A stretch of DNA of 35,568 nucleotides from Planctomycetaceae bacterium (GTDB lineage: Bacteria > Planctomycetota > Planctomycetia > Planctomycetales > Planctomycetaceae). The stretch lies in NCBI GenBank assembly GCA_021732415.1, contig JAKFVC010000204.1:1-35568 (forward strand). Direction: 5' to 3'. Shown here piece by piece: positions 1,677 to 34,425 of the stretch. Below the pieces are notes generated by a model. It was not told the DNA's origin, did no database searches, and was given only the letters and a program-made list of their open reading frames with translations. How positions within the stretch are numbered: the stretch's first letter is position 1; each line of letters starts with the position of its first letter. Made by a program: the position numbers and the translations under genes.

Positions 1677-1855
1677 TGCGCCGTGAAGGATTCTTGTTCG
1701 GTGATATCGAAGAAGTACGCTTCGATTCGTGATTCGAGTCGATGGGAGGGTGAGGCTCCTGCCGAACCGGATAGTCTGGCGCGGGCCAATAGACGCTTGC
1801 GGTTCGGCAGGAGCCTCACCCTCCCATGAAGTCGAAATATCCTTCACGGCGCAGG
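1677..1855. repeat. GGGAGGG...GAGGCTCCTGCC palindromic element, copy A
   Basis: Inner arms 1744-1768 and 1801-1825 form a long perfect or near-perfect hairpin (GGGAGGGTGAGGCTCC at the base, GCCGAACC at the tip) with a loop of about 32 bases. An outer pair, TGCGCCGTGAAGGAT at 1677 and its complement near 1840-1853, encloses it. The 41 bases at 1728-1768 reappear exactly in reverse complement at 15402-15442 (copy B). In translation the arms give the peptide GEAPAEP. It lies between the oxidoreductase start and a dehydrogenase fragment. There is no transposase gene nearby. Confidence 0.9.
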
Positions 1856-2924: not shown

Positions 2925-5900
2925 ATGGTTGAATTTACATTGAGTGAATGGCTGAGACTGATTCCCCGAAAATTGTCCTGGAGTACCCGGCGTAAGTCGC
3001 GCCAAACAAGACTCTCGCGTATTGAGGGTCTAGAAGATCGCTCAATGTTGACGGCCCCGGTTGCGGTTCCTGACATTTACAATGGGACCGAGGACACCCT
3101 GCTGATTTCCGGCACGTCGGTCCTGGCCAATGATACCGATGCTGACGCAGACACTGTTGATACGGCGATATTGGACACAACGACGACCAATGGAACCCTG
3201 GCTCTCGCGAGTGACGGTACCTTCACTTACACACCGAACGCCAATTTCAATGGCACCGATTCGTTTACATATTTTGCCCAAACTTCGTCCAACGGTGATG
3301 TCAGTGCGCTGCCTGCCACAGTCACCATCAACGTCGCTGCGGTCGATGATCTACCGCTGGCGGTGAACGACACGCTCACAGTGGCCGAGGATAGCGGCAC
3401 CACCAACGGCGACCTGGCTACCAATGACACGCCCAGTGGTGACGGCGGCAACGTCTGGAGCCTGACGACGGGGGCGACCAGCGGCGTGGCCGTAGTCAAT
3501 GCGGACGGCACGTTCACCTACACTCCGAATGCGAATTTCAACGGTTCGGATTCTTTCACCTACACGATCACTGACGTCGATGGCGACACCAGCACGGCAA
3601 CCGTGGCCATCACCGTGACCGCGGTGGATGACCTGCCGGTCGCGGTGAACGATTCGCTGATCGTGGCCGAGGACAGCGGTACCACCAACGGTGACCTGGC
3701 ACTCAACGACACCCCCAGCGGTGACGGTGGCAACGTCTGGTCTCTGACAACGGGGGCCACCAGTGGTGTGGCCGTGGTCAATGCGGATGGCACCTTCAGC
3801 TACACGCCGAACGCGAATTTCAACGGTTCAGATTCTTTCACTTATACGATCACTGACGTCGACGGCGACACCAGCACGGCCAACGTCGCGATTACCGTGA
3901 CCGCAGTTGATGACTTGCCGGTGGCCGTGGCCGATACGCTGACTGTGGCTGAAGACAGCGGCACGACGAACGGAAACCTGGCCACGAATGACACCCCCAG
4001 CGGTGACGGCGGCAACGTCTGGTCTCTGACCACAGGGGCCACCAATGGCGTGGCTGTGGTGAATCCGGATGGCACGTTCAGCTACACTCCGAATGCGAAT
4101 TTCAACGGTTTGGATTCTTTCACCTACACCATTACCGACGTTGATGGCGACACCAGTACGGCAGCGGTGGCCATTACCGTCACCGCGGTCGATGACGTAC
4201 CCGTGGCCGTGGATGACGCGCTGACCGTGGCTGAAGACAGTGGTCTCACGACTGGTAGCGTGGCCGCGAATGACACCCCCAGCGGTGACGGCGGCAACGT
4301 CTGGATATTGGCCACACCAGCGACCAATGGTGTCGCTGTGGTCAATCCCGATGGCACGTTCACTTACACGCCGAACGCCAATTTCAACGGTTCGGATTCT
4401 TTCACCTACACCATTACGGACGTGGACGGCGATACCAGCACGGCCAGCGTGGCCATTACCGTCACATCAGTCGATGACCTGCCAGTGGCGGTCAACGACA
4501 CGCTGACAGTCGCCGAAGACAGCGGCACCACCAGTGGCAACGTGGCCCTTAACGACACCCCCAGCGGTGATGGCGGCAACGTGTGGTCGCTGACGACTGC
4601 GGCGAGCAATGGCGTGGCCGTGGTCAATGCGAATGGCACATACACCTATACCCCGAACGCCAATTTCAACGGCTCGGATTCGTTCACGTATTCCATTACG
4701 GACGCCGATGGTGACACCAGCACCGCCACCGTGGCCGTTACCGTCACCTCAGTGGATGATGTGCCCGTGGCCGTGGCCGACACGCTGACTGTCGCCGAAG
4801 ACAGCGGTGCGACCAGCGGCAATCTGGCCCTCAACGATACTCCGAGCGGCGACGGCGGCAACGTCTGGAGCCTGACCACAGGGGCCACTCATGGGGTGGC
4901 CGTAGTCAATGCGAATGGCACCTTTACTTACACGCCCAACGCCAATTACAACGGGGCGGATTCTTTCACCTACACCATTACGGACGCGGACGGCGATACG
5001 AGCACCGCAGCGGTCGCTATTATTGTCACGGCTGTCGATGACGTACCGGTCGCGGTGAACGATACACTCACCGTGGCCGAAGACAGCGGTCTGACCAGTG
5101 GTAACCTGGCCCTGAATGACACCCCGAGCGGTGACGGTGGCAATATCTGGACGCTGGCGACGGGAGCCACTCATGGCGTGGCCGTGGTCAATCCCGATGG
5201 CACATTCACTTACACTCCGAATGTCAATTTCAACGGCTCGGATTCGTTCACCTACACCATTACGGACATCGATGGCGATACCAGCACGGCCACTGTGGCC
5301 ATTACCGTCACATCAGTCGATGACGTACCGGTGGCCGTGGACGATACGCTGACGGTGGCCGAAGACAGCGGCACTACCAGCGGCGACCTGGCCCTCAATG
5401 ACACGCCCAGCGGTGACGGCGGGAACGTCTGGAGTCTGACGACAGGGGCGGCTAACGGCGTGGCCGTGGTCAATGCGAATGGCACCTTTACCTACACTCC
5501 GAATGCCAACTTCCACGGCTCGGATTCCTTCACCTACACGATCACTGATGTCGATGGCGATACCAGCACCGCCACCGTCTCGGTTACGGTCACCACAGTG
5601 AATGATGTTCCGGTTGTCGTCGATGGCTCCGGCACGCTGGCTCAGGATTCGATCTTCAGCGGTTCACTCGCTCCGTTGGGTTCAGATGCCGACGGCGACA
5701 CCTTGAACTTCTCGGCTGTGACCACGCCGCTGCACGGTACACTGTCACTCAGTGCGGATGGGAATTTCACTTACACTCCGGACTCAGGCTTCAGCGGTAC
5801 CGATTTCTTCACCTTCCAGGCGAACGACGGTCAGGCCGACAGCAATATTGCCACGTTCACTTTGAACGTGACCGATTTGTTTACGCTGGTCTTGTCACCA

Positions 5901-6317
5901 GTTCCCGGCACGATCGCCACGTCCACCAAGGCCGCTGTGCCGCTTGATAGTACGGCCCATTTGGAGAATGTGGATCCGTCGGTCAACTTCGCCAATGCGT
6001 CGATCAGCGCGGGTATTATCTCTGGTGCTGACAAGCATGATCGGATCTTCATCACCGATGGCGGAAGCATCGACGCTCGGGGTCGACGAATCCTCTTCAA
6101 TGGCACGGAAGTCGCCCGGTTGAGTGGTGGGCGGCGCGGCCAGGATTTGCAGATCAGTTTCAACGGCAGTGCGACGCTCGATTCCGTGAACGCCGTCCTG
6201 CAACGAATTAGTGTGAAAACGTCCAAGCGTGCCAGTACTTCGACTCGGACGGTTCAGATCACAGTAAATGCGGGCGGGGAAACCAGCTCGTCCACGATCG
6301 ATGCGAATGTTGCGTAA
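2925..6317 (+). CDS. Giant surface/secreted protein with ten cadherin-like (tandem-95/VCBS type) repeats
   Basis: This is likely an extracellular adhesin or structural protein of 1130 residues. Residues 1-45 are basic and contain RIEGLEDRSML, the planctomycete form of the LEPR-like leader motif found on very large exported proteins. The motif takes the place of a classical signal peptide. A first divergent domain (about 46-140) is followed by eight almost identical 94-residue domains (about 141-892), each running from a D-D-[LV]-P-[LV]-A-V start through LTVAEDSG, NDTPSGDGGN, FTYTPNANFNG and DSFTYTITDVDGDTS. A tenth, diverged domain follows (about 893-985). The aspartate-rich DxDGDTST loops suggest calcium binding. 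The last 145 residues form a different domain (ISAGIISGADKHDRI, GRRILFNGTEVARLSGG) without a transmembrane anchor. The ATG at 2925 has GGAGCACGACC just upstream. A terminator follows at 6395. Confidence 0.9.
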   Translation: MVEFTLSEWLRLIPRKLSWSTRRKSRQTRLSRIEGLEDRSMLTAPVAVPDIYNGTEDTLLISGTSVLANDTDADADTVDTAILDTTTTNGTLALASDGTFTYTPNANFNGTDSFTYFAQTSSNGDVSALPATVTINVAAVDDLPLAVNDTLTVAEDSGTTNGDLATNDTPSGDGGNVWSLTTGATSGVAVVNADGTFTYTPNANFNGSDSFTYTITDVDGDTSTATVAITVTAVDDLPVAVNDSLIVAEDSGTTNGDLALNDTPSGDGGNVWSLTTGATSGVAVVNADGTFSYTPNANFNGSDSFTYTITDVDGDTSTANVAITVTAVDDLPVAVADTLTVAEDSGTTNGNLATNDTPSGDGGNVWSLTTGATNGVAVVNPDGTFSYTPNANFNGLDSFTYTITDVDGDTSTAAVAITVTAVDDVPVAVDDALTVAEDSGLTTGSVAANDTPSGDGGNVWILATPATNGVAVVNPDGTFTYTPNANFNGSDSFTYTITDVDGDTSTASVAITVTSVDDLPVAVNDTLTVAEDSGTTSGNVALNDTPSGDGGNVWSLTTAASNGVAVVNANGTYTYTPNANFNGSDSFTYSITDADGDTSTATVAVTVTSVDDVPVAVADTLTVAEDSGATSGNLALNDTPSGDGGNVWSLTTGATHGVAVVNANGTFTYTPNANYNGADSFTYTITDADGDTSTAAVAIIVTAVDDVPVAVNDTLTVAEDSGLTSGNLALNDTPSGDGGNIWTLATGATHGVAVVNPDGTFTYTPNVNFNGSDSFTYTITDIDGDTSTATVAITVTSVDDVPVAVDDTLTVAEDSGTTSGDLALNDTPSGDGGNVWSLTTGAANGVAVVNANGTFTYTPNANFHGSDSFTYTITDVDGDTSTATVSVTVTTVNDVPVVVDGSGTLAQDSIFSGSLAPLGSDADGDTLNFSAVTTPLHGTLSLSADGNFTYTPDSGFSGTDFFTFQANDGQADSNIATFTLNVTDLFTLVLSPVPGTIATSTKAAVPLDSTAHLENVDPSVNFANASISAGIISGADKHDRIFITDGGSIDARGRRILFNGTEVARLSGGRRGQDLQISFNGSATLDSVNAVLQRISVKTSKRASTSTRTVQITVNAGGETSSSTIDANVA
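3345..5600 (+). repeat. Eight tandem 282-bp coding repeats
   Basis: Period 282 bp exactly: unit starts fall at 3345, 3627, 3909 and so on to 5601, each beginning at a GATGAT/GATGAC codon pair and encoding 94 residues. Copies differ mainly at synonymous or conservative positions, with small switches such as NADGTF, NPDGTF and NANGTF. Such near-identity over 2.2 kb points to recent duplication or gene conversion. Copy number probably varies between strains and may be misassembled from short reads. Confidence 0.95.
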
Positions 6318-8655: not shown

Positions 8656-8667
8656 GGAATTATTTAC

Positions 8668-8734
8668 GTAGCCGCAATTCGCCAGAATGCGGGCAGTCTG
8701 TGGATCGGCCCGCATTCTGGCGAATTGCGGCTAC
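8668..8734. repeat. Perfect 27-bp-arm palindrome (GTAGCCGCAATTCGCC type)
   Basis: The left arm 8668-8694 begins GTAGCCGCAATTCGCC and is the exact reverse complement of 8708-8734, with a 13-base loop. It could act as a transcript end for the gene stopping at 8655, but no T-run follows. It contributes the first codons of a longer, rejected frame for the isochorismatase gene. Confidence 0.9.
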
Positions 8735-8792
8735 ACAATTTATTCTGCGCTCTTACTTAGAACCTAATACCACCTCAGAGGAAGCTCTAAGA

Positions 8793-9607: not shown

Positions 9608-9701
9608 AGGCGAGCCCGGCGGCGTAAGCCCCGGGATTCTTTTTCTGACAGGGAGTTAGCAGCGAAGAAGAATCCGGGGGCTTACGCCACCCGGCTCACC
9701 T
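9608..9701. repeat. Inverted repeat, GGCGTAAGCCCCGG type
   Basis: The left arm 9608-9644 (AGGCGAGCCCGGCGGCGTAA, then GCCCCGGGATTCTTTTT) pairs imperfectly with 9667-9701 (GAAGAATCCGGGGGCTTACG and following). It sits between the 3' end of the DUF1559-type lipoprotein gene and the 5' end of the small membrane-protein gene, both on the minus strand. Confidence 0.85.
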
Positions 9702-15315: not shown

Positions 15316-15442
15316 CAACACCGCGAAGGATATTTCGACGTTACGGGAGGGCGAGGCTCCTGCCGAACCGCATAGTCTGGCGAGGGCCGAACGACGCTTG
15401 CGGTTCGGCAGGAGCCTCACCCTCCCATCGACTCGAATCACG
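15316..15442. repeat. GGGAGGG...GAGGCTCCTGCC palindromic element, copy B
   Basis: Same family as the element at 1677-1855: arms 15345-15368 and 15402-15426, loop containing ATAGTCTGGCG and GACGCTTGC. The left flank GCGAAGGATATTTCGACG matches the complement of copy A's right flank, and the right flank ATCGACTCGAATCACG matches the complement of copy A's left flank, while the loop has the same orientation in both. It separates P1 from the small gene at 15582. Confidence 0.9.
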
Positions 15443-15521
15443 ACCACGATTGGATTCCTTCAGGGAATCCTAAGAAAAGTCTTTCACCGTATACCCGGTG
15501 CAGGTTGTGCATTCCAAGTAT

Positions 15522-18141: not shown

Positions 18142-18323
18142 CCCGTGGCGGACGCTGCTAGCGTCCGTCTCTCAGGCTTTCCAAGCAAAAATCCTTCACA
18201 GAGTTGCCCGGATGGGCCGCCGACACATTGGCAGGCAATCGCCGGTCGCCCCTTCCGGGCGACTCCGTAGCTGATTTGTTTGGAAAAACACGGAACACGG
18301 ACGCTAGCAGCGTCCGCCACGGG
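18142..18323. repeat. Long inverted repeat, GGACGCTGCTAGCGTCC type
   Basis: The perfect 27-bp arms are 18142-18168 and 18297-18323, each with an internal palindrome (GGACGCTGCTAGCGTCC). Imperfect pairing continues inward (TTTCCAAGCAAA against TTTGTTTGGAAA). The 128-base centre holds a second small hairpin, GTCGCC/GGCGAC. It fills the space between the convergent ends of the pseudopilin gene and the deiodinase-like gene. Confidence 0.9.
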
Positions 18324-19481: not shown

Positions 19482-19493
19482 CGGCAATTCTTC

Positions 19494-19724
19494 CGTAGGA
19501 TAGGCATCCTGCCTGTCATTCAAGTGGTCTAGATTGAAGTTTTGGCAATCGAAAGCGTCTGAGAGTGTGAGGGTGTGAGAGTTACGGAGTAAGATTTCAG
19601 TTCGAATCTAATTGGACACGTTTCGTCCCTCAGACCCTCACACTCTGGCACCCCCCACACCATTTTATCCCGCGCAAACGACTAGTTACGTCGCTAGAGT
19701 GACAGGCAGGATGCCTATCCTACG
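19494..19724. repeat. Nested inverted repeats upstream of the deiodinase-like gene
   Basis: The outer arms 19494-19518 and 19700-19724 are a perfect 25-bp palindrome (core GGATAGGCATCCTGCCTGTC). Inside lies a second inverted repeat of the GAGAGTGTGAGGGTGTGAGAG family (about 19559-19648), related in both arms and loop (ACGGAGTAAG, CGAATCTAATTGG) to the element at 13190-13310. The left outer arm begins only 12 bases upstream of the deiodinase-like start codon. Confidence 0.9.
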
Positions 19725-19807
19725 GGTAGGGTACCACTCGGCAGGGAGAAAGACCATAATCTGCAGGCCAGTACGGCACTTGATTTACGCTCAATCGGGA
19801 GACCACC

Positions 19808-28159: not shown

Positions 28160-28201
28160 AAAAAAAGCCATAGCGGGCAAGTTGCTCGCTATGGCTTTTT
28201 T
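28160..28201 (+). terminator. Bidirectional-looking intrinsic terminator after glnN
   Basis: AAAAAAGCCATAGCG and CGCTATGGCTTTTTT flank a short loop (GGCAAGTTGCT). The strong stem and T-run end the glnN transcript 23 bases after its stop. The A-run on the left side would give a T-run for minus-strand transcription as well. Confidence 0.92.
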
Positions 28202-28202
28202 C

Positions 28203-28315
28203 GTAGCCCGACTCTCTGAGTCGGGTGGGTGCGAGGCGTTAGTCGAGCCTGTAGCCTGACTCTCCGAGTCGGGTATCCTTCGTCTTCACACTCCCGACTC
28301 AGAGAGTCGGGCTAC
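28203..28315. repeat. Three TAGCCYGACTCTC units, two direct and one inverted
   Basis: Units at 28203-28225 and 28251-28273 are direct copies of GTAGCCYGACTCTCYGAGTC-GGG, and 28293-28315 is an inverted copy. The same unit forms the outer arms at 21950 and 22157. Each unit also contains its own small hairpin (GACTC...GAGTC). The cluster fills the gap between the glnN terminator and the next gene's stop. Confidence 0.9.
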
Positions 28316-28319
28316 AAAG

Positions 28320-29445: not shown

Positions 29446-29542
29446 GACTGTTCTCCGACTGGACCAATGCAGTGACTATTAAGCCGTATGTCGTGGCAGA
29501 TGAACTCTCTCCATAATATTGGAATCGAGACTTCATTTTTTT

Positions 29543-29720
29543 GACCCTGGAGGGGTCGCAGAGGGTAGCCGGTGGTTGAGCGGAGCGACACCACCGGAAT
29601 AAGTTAGCGATGAAACTCCGACCCTGGAGGGGTCGCAGAAACGTTGCTCTGCGACCCCTCCAGGGTCGAAAATAGGAAACTCTATAACCCGGTGGTGTCG
29701 CTGCGCTCAACCACCGGCTA
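29543..29720. repeat. Composite mirrored repeat (CCCTGGAGGGGTCGCAGA and GCCGGTGGTTGAGC units)
   Basis: Order on the plus strand: unit a (29543-29563, GACCCTGGAGGGGTCGCAGA), unit b (29566-29597, TAGCCGGTGGTTGAGC onward), unit a again (29619-29639), then inverted a (29648-29668) and inverted b (29689-29720). The whole is thus an a-b-a palindrome with one b on each side. Units a and b also occur as short hairpins by themselves. Confidence 0.9.
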
Positions 29721-29799
29721 CTCTCTTTAATCCCTCCGGGATATGTGTTAATCGCAGATCTTACGCCATTCCGCCAATGTGCTAATAAATACAAAATCA

Positions 29800-31128: not shown

Positions 31129-31440
31129 CAATGAGTGAGGCTGAGCCCTTCCGCGAGGATGCGGATGGCAACGTGATTGATAGGAATAGCAGTAGGAAAA
31201 TCGTGCGACGGGGATGAAATCTACGAAGATGTGTGCGGGAGTTTATCCGTCGACCCAAATTGGGGCCAGATCAATCCGCCGTGGAGATTCAGGCAACCTG
31301 GGAGGGCGAGGCTCCCGCCGAGCCTAAGACGACCGCAGGTCGGCGTCCGCCGGAGGCCGGTTTGTTAGAATGCCTCCGGCGGACGCCGAGCTAAAGCTCG
31401 CTTTAGGCTCGGCGGGAGCCTCGCCCTCCCAGTCCGTGCT
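31129..31440. other. Intergenic stretch with palindrome copy C
   Basis: No gene is visible. It contains the palindromic element at 31299-31431, which stops ten bases before the TrmB stop codon, and about 170 bases upstream of the CX4CH protein gene without a clear promoter. Confidence 0.5.
31299..31431. repeat. Multi-hairpin palindromic element, copy C
   Basis: Outer arms TGGGAGGGCGAGGCTCC...GGAGCC-TCGCCCTCCCA enclose three inner hairpins: CGACCGCAGGTCG, a long GGCGTCCGCCGGAGGC stem, and GAGCTAAAGCTC. Copy D at 34036-34164 is nearly the same sequence in reverse orientation. The outer arms are related to those of copies A and B. Confidence 0.92.
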
Positions 31441-32821: not shown

Positions 32822-32917
32822 GTGGGACGGGTCTCCAGGCCCGTCAGTCCAGGATGTTTTCACAGCGAAAACTTGGAATTCCAGAGGGGGACGGACGGGC
32901 CTGGAGACCCGTCCCAC
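32822..32917. repeat. Perfect 24-bp-arm palindrome, GTGGGACGGGTCTCCAGGCC type
   Basis: Arms 32822-32845 and 32894-32917 are exact reverse complements. The 48-base centre has a smaller hairpin, GTTTTC-ACAGC-GAAAAC. It lies between the HAD-like stop (ten bases away) and the FabZ-like gene. Confidence 0.92.
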
Positions 32918-33883: not shown

Positions 33884-34425
33884 AACCGGAAAGACCTTTT
33901 TCACCACGGAGTACAGAGAATCACAACGGCCCAGCACGGTGCCGCGATTGTTCTCTTATGCTGACCGTCGTTGTGTGTCAACGATAAACGGGAAGTTCGA
34001 TTGATGGCTAAGAGCCAGTTTGGATCGCCAGTTTTTGGGAGGGCGAGGCTCCTGCCGAGCCTAGTACGAGCTTTAGCTCGGCGTCCGCCGGAGGCATCAA
34101 ACGGGGCCTCCGGCGGACGCCGACCTGCGGTCGTGTTAGGCTCGGCGGGAGCCTCGCCCTCCCATCTTAATCACATTCAGTCTCGGAAATGCGCAGCATT
34201 GGTGCGACATTTGCGGATGACAAGTGACCAGTGTCGTTGGTGCGAGTAATCTGATCGGGAGGATTACTTTCGATTGACGTTTCTGTTACGATTTTGGCTG
34301 GTGAGCAAAACACCATTTGAGACGGAATTGCACTTCGCGGTAGCTCAGCTCGGCAGTCGCCCAGCGCGTTCGGCGATTCACTCTCATCCAGCGGTGACCT
34401 TTCCCTTTTCATGAGACAGGATCCC
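33884..34425. other. Divergent intergenic region between the HAD-like and MoxR genes
   Basis: No gene is visible. It holds palindrome copy D (34036-34164). I did not find a promoter for the MoxR gene that I would stand behind. Confidence 0.5.
34036..34164. repeat. Multi-hairpin palindromic element, copy D
   Basis: An inverted copy of the element at 31299-31431, with the same three inner hairpins in reverse order (GAGCTTTAGCTC, long GGCGTCCGCCGGAGGC stem, CGACCTGCGGTCG). The loop sequences differ. The flanks show no similarity to those of copy C, so the terminal TGGGAGGG/CCCTCCCA likely marks the element ends. Confidence 0.92.

Follow-up and report, generated by a model that had tools for sequence, protein, structure and literature searches.

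The terminal hairpins of parvoviruses such as AAV occur in a flip and a flop orientation and are processed by a replication protein. The hairpins described here likewise stand in two orientations with respect to their flanks, those of AAV being terminal and viral and these being internal to a chromosome. According to the accessible parts of three reports, studies of loop inversion between inverted repeats have dealt with individual loci or with loops that are very short (PMC8604942, PMC8794818, PMC2903610), and one of them also mentions hairpin-primed parvovirus replication (PMC8794818). In the chloroplast trnH-psbA spacer, a loop of 25–27 bp is enclosed by inverted repeats with a minimum length of 18 bp, and was found in both orientations within one plant family (19 and 16 of 35) and variable within species (PMC2903610). 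The geometry is like that of the bacterial hairpins, with the difference that trnH-psbA is one organellar locus and the bacterial element a dispersed mobile family; for half-flipped loops, present in the latter, no mention concerning trnH-psbA was found in the accessible part of that report (PMC2903610). Copying of arms and inversion of entire loops have both been documented, in yeast (PMC8604942) and in rRNA genes (PMC8794818), where template switching turns a spacer between its arms, as the spacer is turned between arms here. Arm homogenisation is the sister product of this inversion, which in yeast is recurrent and reversible (PMC8604942, PMC8794818). The spacers are short in yeast (2–5 substitutions; PMC8604942) and the rRNA loops typically have 4 nt, up to 7–8 (PMC8794818), versus 30 nt in the bacterial element, with more than 100 copies per genome.

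As a repeat family, the element resembles the bacterial MITEs and the REP/BIME/REPIN sequences with their RAYTs, which are also short, dispersed and palindromic (PMC3733652), tagged REPs having been reported in planctomycetes too (PMC3733652). Unlike REP/BIME/REPIN as described in the accessible part of that source, it measures about 175 bp, is bounded by terminal inverted repeats of 14 bp and has a single long hairpin. No description of this element, or of loop inversion in a dispersed bacterial repeat, was found in the titles and abstracts of open-licence papers. The process is real and mostly familiar, and it concerns a repeat family for which no description was found in that literature: MITE-like hairpins that insert and whose loops can later flip.

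The window, that is, the whole stretch of 35,568 nucleotides analyzed, is contig C86 of a genome of 9.87 Mb in 350 contigs (the own genome). Two copies, A and B, of a mobile element resembling a MITE lie in it; the element has about 175 bp, ends in inverted repeats of 14 bp and contains a central hairpin. The parts of the element are, in order, a terminal repeat (ACGCCGTGAAGGAT), flank Y (about 50 nt, ending in GTGATTCGAGTCGAT), an arm, the loop, an arm, flank X (ATGACGTCGAAATATCC) and a terminal repeat. In the window they are located as follows:

1678..1852, + strand: copy A, complete element of 175 bp including both terminal repeats, in the order Y, loop(+), X
1678–1691 (+) and 1839–1852 (−): terminal repeats of copy A, by pattern match
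1692..1743, + strand: asymmetric flank Y of copy A, ending in GTGATTCGAGTCGAT, from column conservation and the listing of classified copies
1744..1825, no strand: 82-nt hairpin of copy A, with short arms GGGAGGGTGAGGCTCCTGCCGAACCG, from repeat search, parser and folding
1770..1799, + strand: 30-nt loop of copy A, forward, from repeat search and loop pattern
1826..1852, + strand: asymmetric flank X of copy A (ATGAAGTCGAAATATCCTTCACGGCGC), from the sequence, column conservation and terminal-repeat pattern
15320..15492, − strand: copy B, complete element of 173 bp, its terminal repeats decayed, in the order X, loop(+), Y on the + strand, with ends set by eye
15320..15344, − strand: asymmetric flank X of copy B, from the sequence and column conservation
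15345..15426, no strand: 82-nt hairpin of copy B, from repeat search, parser and folding
15371..15400, + strand: 30-nt loop of copy B, on the same strand as the loop of A despite the inverted flanks
15427..15492, − strand: asymmetric flank Y of copy B, from the sequence and column conservation

The preliminary description had claimed that A and B match in reverse complement, that their flanks are inverted with respect to each other and that their loops have, nonetheless, a common orientation. All this was borne out. Positions 1727–1769 are the exact reverse complement of 15401–15443 (43 nt, 100%, instead of the 41 previously noted), the segments 1798–1849 and 15321–15372 are inverted copies with 90% identity, and both loops lie on one strand; in a repeat search of the window, 1733–1836 was also a direct repeat of 15334–15437 (104 bp, 87%). 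Palindromic arms make part of the 43-nt match trivial; what is informative in it is the asymmetric flank that lies outside GGGAGGG. Folded as single-stranded DNA, the hairpins of A and B gave −48.3 and −42.4 kcal/mol (z of −12.5 and −8.7), and none of 200 shuffles of each folded as well. The window was without any Rfam family at gathering scores. Copy A is the usual form of the hairpin element and copy B is its flipped form.

The loop pattern, with up to three mismatches allowed, gave 109 matches in the own genome and none with a reversed control, so its recurrence is not due to chance; the two flank-plus-arm patterns gave 144 and 137. The matches listed for the three patterns, about 100 places for each, were merged to 142 places, every one of which was read; the family therefore has further copies outside this set. 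Among them, 126 hairpins were parsed, 110 being canonical and 16 being dropped (eight of another family with the same arms, seven with symmetric loops and one weak). The arm is GGGAGGGTGAGGCTCC[T/C]GCCGAACCG or a version 12 nt longer (GGGACCCAGAGGGTACCCC), both versions occurring, for instance, at the own loci L010, L012 and L016, and 10 of the 77 classified own copies among the matches listed have one arm of each length. The loop has 30 nt and is asymmetric, with conserved ends. In the own genome, arms and loops were much more alike between copies than the outer flanks. Own copies with both terminal repeats measured 175 bp in eight of nine cases among the matches listed, the ninth, with one long arm, reaching 186 bp; in three genomes taken together the figure was 16 of 23, the others having 170–186 bp. 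One or both terminal repeats were lost in 86 of the 109 copies classified in the three genomes among the matches listed, and of the 47 terminal-repeat places, some are on contigs in which no hairpin copy was found. Many elements (L024, L117, L119, L143 and others) are bracketed on both sides, just outside the terminal repeats, by short GCCCC-nnn-GGGC hairpins, possibly as parts of longer terminal repeats or as an insertion preference.

The family is also carried by two sister genomes of the same genus, both metagenome assemblies and taken to be JAQGHS01 (G003) and CAMAVF01 (G002). An empty-site survey was run with 24 own loci, using one flank piece of each against G003, and 20 gave a place. 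In a loose scan for arms, two of these 20 places matched, neither of them being the element when inspected by eye; one further locus, L275, has a broken element. At the site of A, the flanks abut in the sister (L258) and the own genome has 178 extra bases, and at the site of B the sister (L211) has 22 bases versus 211. The corresponding figures were 0 versus 200 at L072, 6 versus 183 at L026 and 15 versus 120 at L010, and at other loci the sister carries different sequence, tens to hundreds of bases long. As the whole unit of Y, hairpin and X is missing at the sister sites of A and B, the element moves together with its flanks. No target-site duplication was seen by eye at the two cleanest sites, L072 and L026, where the flanks are diverged. 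The element is thus short, dispersed, bounded by terminal inverted repeats and inserted as a unit at empty sites, like a MITE. Mobilisation by a RAYT was considered and rejected since, at 13 loci with Y1 transposases of the own genome, no terminal repeat, X or Y was present in up to about 1.5 kb per side at up to one mismatch, a difference from the REP/RAYT systems; arm matches appeared at two of the 13, at a distance of over 1 kb from the match to Y1.

Concerning the orientation of loops with respect to flanks, the preliminary description had proposed to look at whether both combinations are frequent across the genome, constant coupling being the observation that would speak against it. With the loop read forward, the 110 own copies among the matches listed were distributed as YX 53, XY 24, XX 4, YY 1 and unclear 28. 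Both combinations are therefore common, constant coupling is absent, and the two orientations are uncoupled, the split of 53 to 24 being different from even (p 0.001). A second parse of the same 110 with slightly wider flank rules gave 53 and 25. The loop variants are largely the same in the YX and XY forms. On trees of flanks and loops the flipped copies were scattered, with 19 and 21 label changes, whereas 300 shuffles averaged 20.7 and 20.5; the trees comprise 77 own copies with about 115 and 42 nt and are poorly resolved, so the absence of a flipped clade is weak evidence. The C or T base of the arm was tried as a side marker and dropped, being only weakly tied to the flank side.

When the own loci were compared with 122 sister loci, some of which share a place, this yielded one pair in which the loop is reversed at the same locus with unchanged flanks, that is, a spacer inversion. 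Own locus L177 and G003 locus L229 are 86% identical over 826 bp, in an alignment that takes in the Y-side neighbourhood, Y, the arms of the hairpin and X. Their loops agree at 26 of 29 positions when one is reversed and at 14 of 29 when both are read forward; in the middle of the loop the figures are 17 of 19 and 5 of 19, and none of 200,000 shuffles of the middle reached the former. L177 is the best match to the L229 loop of the 118 own copies among the matches listed, and the sole one with TAACGAG. This pair shows directly, in one instance, a single insertion with opposite loops in two species, i.e., flipping in place; it is the only unambiguous orthologous flip and is read from draft assemblies. 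Loop flipping is shown again by two close paralogues of G003, L050 (+) and L205 (−), whose flanks agree at 73 of 80 positions and whose loops, in opposite orientation, agree at 29 of 30. The preliminary description had offered recombination between arms or active hairpin flipping as the cause; that loops flip in place was corroborated by these two pairs, neither process being shown as such.

The orientation was kept in three orthologous pairs (L196/L169, L245/L085 and L283/L077), the element flanks of which align poorly, so that separate insertions are not fully excludable. At L196 of G002, the left neighbour of the hairpin matches one of the own contigs of L169 and L092 and the right neighbour the other, these two own copies being members of two hairpin families that share arms; rearrangement at the repeat or a chimeric assembly are possible causes. 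Other pairs were set aside. L184/L168 have opposite loops at the same gene junction, but their element flanks fail to align; L212/L130 match at 67% in a gene to which L067 is matched too, and which is probably one of a multi-copy family; in L277/L068 the sister hairpin is reduced to 37 nt and the element is reversed; in L279/L125 and L292/L126 the sister loop is lost or cut off; L299/L101 have unclear flanks; L275/L094 have a broken and reversed element; and L240/L160 and L237/L219 are homologous repeat nests without shared genes in the aligned part.

The likeliest mechanism of the loop flip is polymerase template switching between the arms, which would account for the observations by biochemistry that is already known. 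The element inserts whole, as the empty sites show, and, judging from the best-preserved copies, mostly in the order Y, loop(+), X; the loop can afterwards be turned in place, as shown in one orthologous pair. During replication, the nascent strand would jump to the complementary strand at one hairpin arm, copy the loop backwards and jump back at the other arm. A half-completed exchange would copy one loop end onto the other and give symmetric loops. Template switching between arms thus predicts half-flipped loops as well as full inversion, and half-flipped loops were present in 6 of the 109 anchored own loops, four with C-C ends (L078, L090, L130 and L174) and two with A-A ends (L110 and L153); L177, one of nine loops without an anchor, is also half-flipped by eye. 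The half-flipped copies measure 83 (C-C) and 81 and 93 (A-A), lengths that match the prediction because the exchange joins unequal loop ends. The arms of flipped copies were no more alike than those of unflipped ones (p 0.5–0.8), although template switching tends to homogenise arms. In the minus (flipped) copies L235 and L306 of G002 and L124 of the own genome, the arm markers are on their usual sides, so the switch points would have to lie in the innermost bases and the exchange would be confined to the tip. Taken as a whole, a MITE-like element inserted as a unit, with loops flipped later by template switching, is probably the right explanation.

The age of the copies was considered in a pooled set of 109 classified copies from the three genomes (76 plus and 33 minus, among the matches listed). 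Those with a near relative (at least 65/80) were 21 plus and 2 minus, versus 55 plus and 31 minus for the others (Fisher p 0.011), with a cut chosen after the table had been seen; a rank test of the pooled trend gave p 0.019. Nine of the 21 young plus copies come from G002 and, as mostly relatives of one burst, lack independence. The copies of the three genomes that keep both terminal repeats were also 21 plus and 2 minus, a split that is not independent of the former because it has the same two minus copies. In the own genome alone, the trend was not significant by consensus score (p 0.21) or by nearest neighbour (p 0.34), and gave p 0.03 when only the Y flank was used. The well-preserved minus copy L205 looks like a recent flip. 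The other one, L235, and L306, which is also minus and also from G002, have related loops; so a flipped form can be passed on by transposition and flips are not simply countable.

Several other explanations have to be weighed. Ectopic gene conversion would exchange loops between dispersed copies and yield a reversed loop without inversion in place, as palindromic arms allow a donor to pair in either orientation. It agrees with the greater likeness of arms and loops than of outer flanks across copies, with the existence of XX and YY copies, and with a G002 locus that joins, at such a hairpin, neighbours which are apart in the own genome, whereby copies may recombine. Nevertheless, the L177/L229 loop variant occurs in no other of the 118 own copies among the matches listed, the L050/L205 loops kept their identity while turning, and the arm markers of L235, L306 and L124 would require conversion tracts confined to the tip; gene conversion is thus regarded as rather unlikely. 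The confinement to the tip agrees no less well with tip processing than with template switching anywhere along the arms. A dedicated cellular enzyme could open and re-seal the hairpin tips, with more than 100 loops per genome flipping back and forth within a culture, and loop orientation would then be a genome-wide heritable binary mark. In a search that covered the Y1 transposases of the own genome no dedicated flipping enzyme was found, nor was any function found for the hairpin element, and we consider an enzyme of this kind very improbable.

It is also highly unlikely that flipping occurs during transposition alone, for instance through a single-stranded hairpin intermediate, with inserted copies never changing. 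Such a course would suit the scatter of the flipped form over the family and the flipped loops that look inherited within a subfamily, but L177/L229 is the same insertion with opposite loops in two species, and the best-preserved copies have nearly all one orientation. The latter also bears on the suspicion of an assembly artefact, by which short-read assemblers would be unable to orient a loop between long perfect inverted repeats. All three genomes are multi-contig drafts, both sisters being metagenome assemblies, and several copies lie near contig ends. An artefact, however, predicts about 50:50 at all ages, versus 21 to 2 in the well-preserved copies. Furthermore, the longest perfect arm run has a median of 16 nt in plus and 23 nt in minus copies (up to 40 nt), and the arms are unequal in length in ten copies, two of them flipped; short reads should thus suffice for reading most orientations, and there is little reason to believe in an artefact. 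Finally, the preliminary description had given as its alternative the insertion of the hairpin into two copies of a flank repeat that was there before; insertions into such an older Y-X repeat would have been independent and of either orientation. The flanks are less conserved than the hairpin, as if the latter were younger, but the sister lacks the whole unit at the A, B and other sites, and an exact pattern (up to 20 bases between) found no hairpin-less Y-X junction in the own genome. This alternative, left unsupported, is extremely unlikely.

In the probable case of insertion as a unit followed by template switching, as in any other where loops flip, flips would mislead alignments of such repeats. 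Since one genome offers more than 100 replicates of the hairpin, graded in age and each with asymmetric flanks and a loop of 30 nt, it could be measured in natural bacterial genomes how often and in which direction flipping occurs, and species could be compared in this respect.

The region of the window is rich in palindromic repeats. An inverted pair of another hairpin family, at 31299–31432 and 34036–34164, has its outer arms (TGGGAGGGCGAGGCTCC) in common with the element and a different, longer centre; eight more hairpins of that family with TGGGAGGGCGAGGCTCC arms are in the own L011, L025, L027, L069, L092, L132, L135 and L145. An open frame of 1130 aa at 2925–6317, with 282-nt tandem repeats, matches bacterial Ig and cadherin-like domains. 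Further strong inverted repeats, unlike these in sequence, are located at 8657–8745, 9608–9701, 18142–18323, 19493–19725, 28200–28318, 29532–29740 and 32822–32917.
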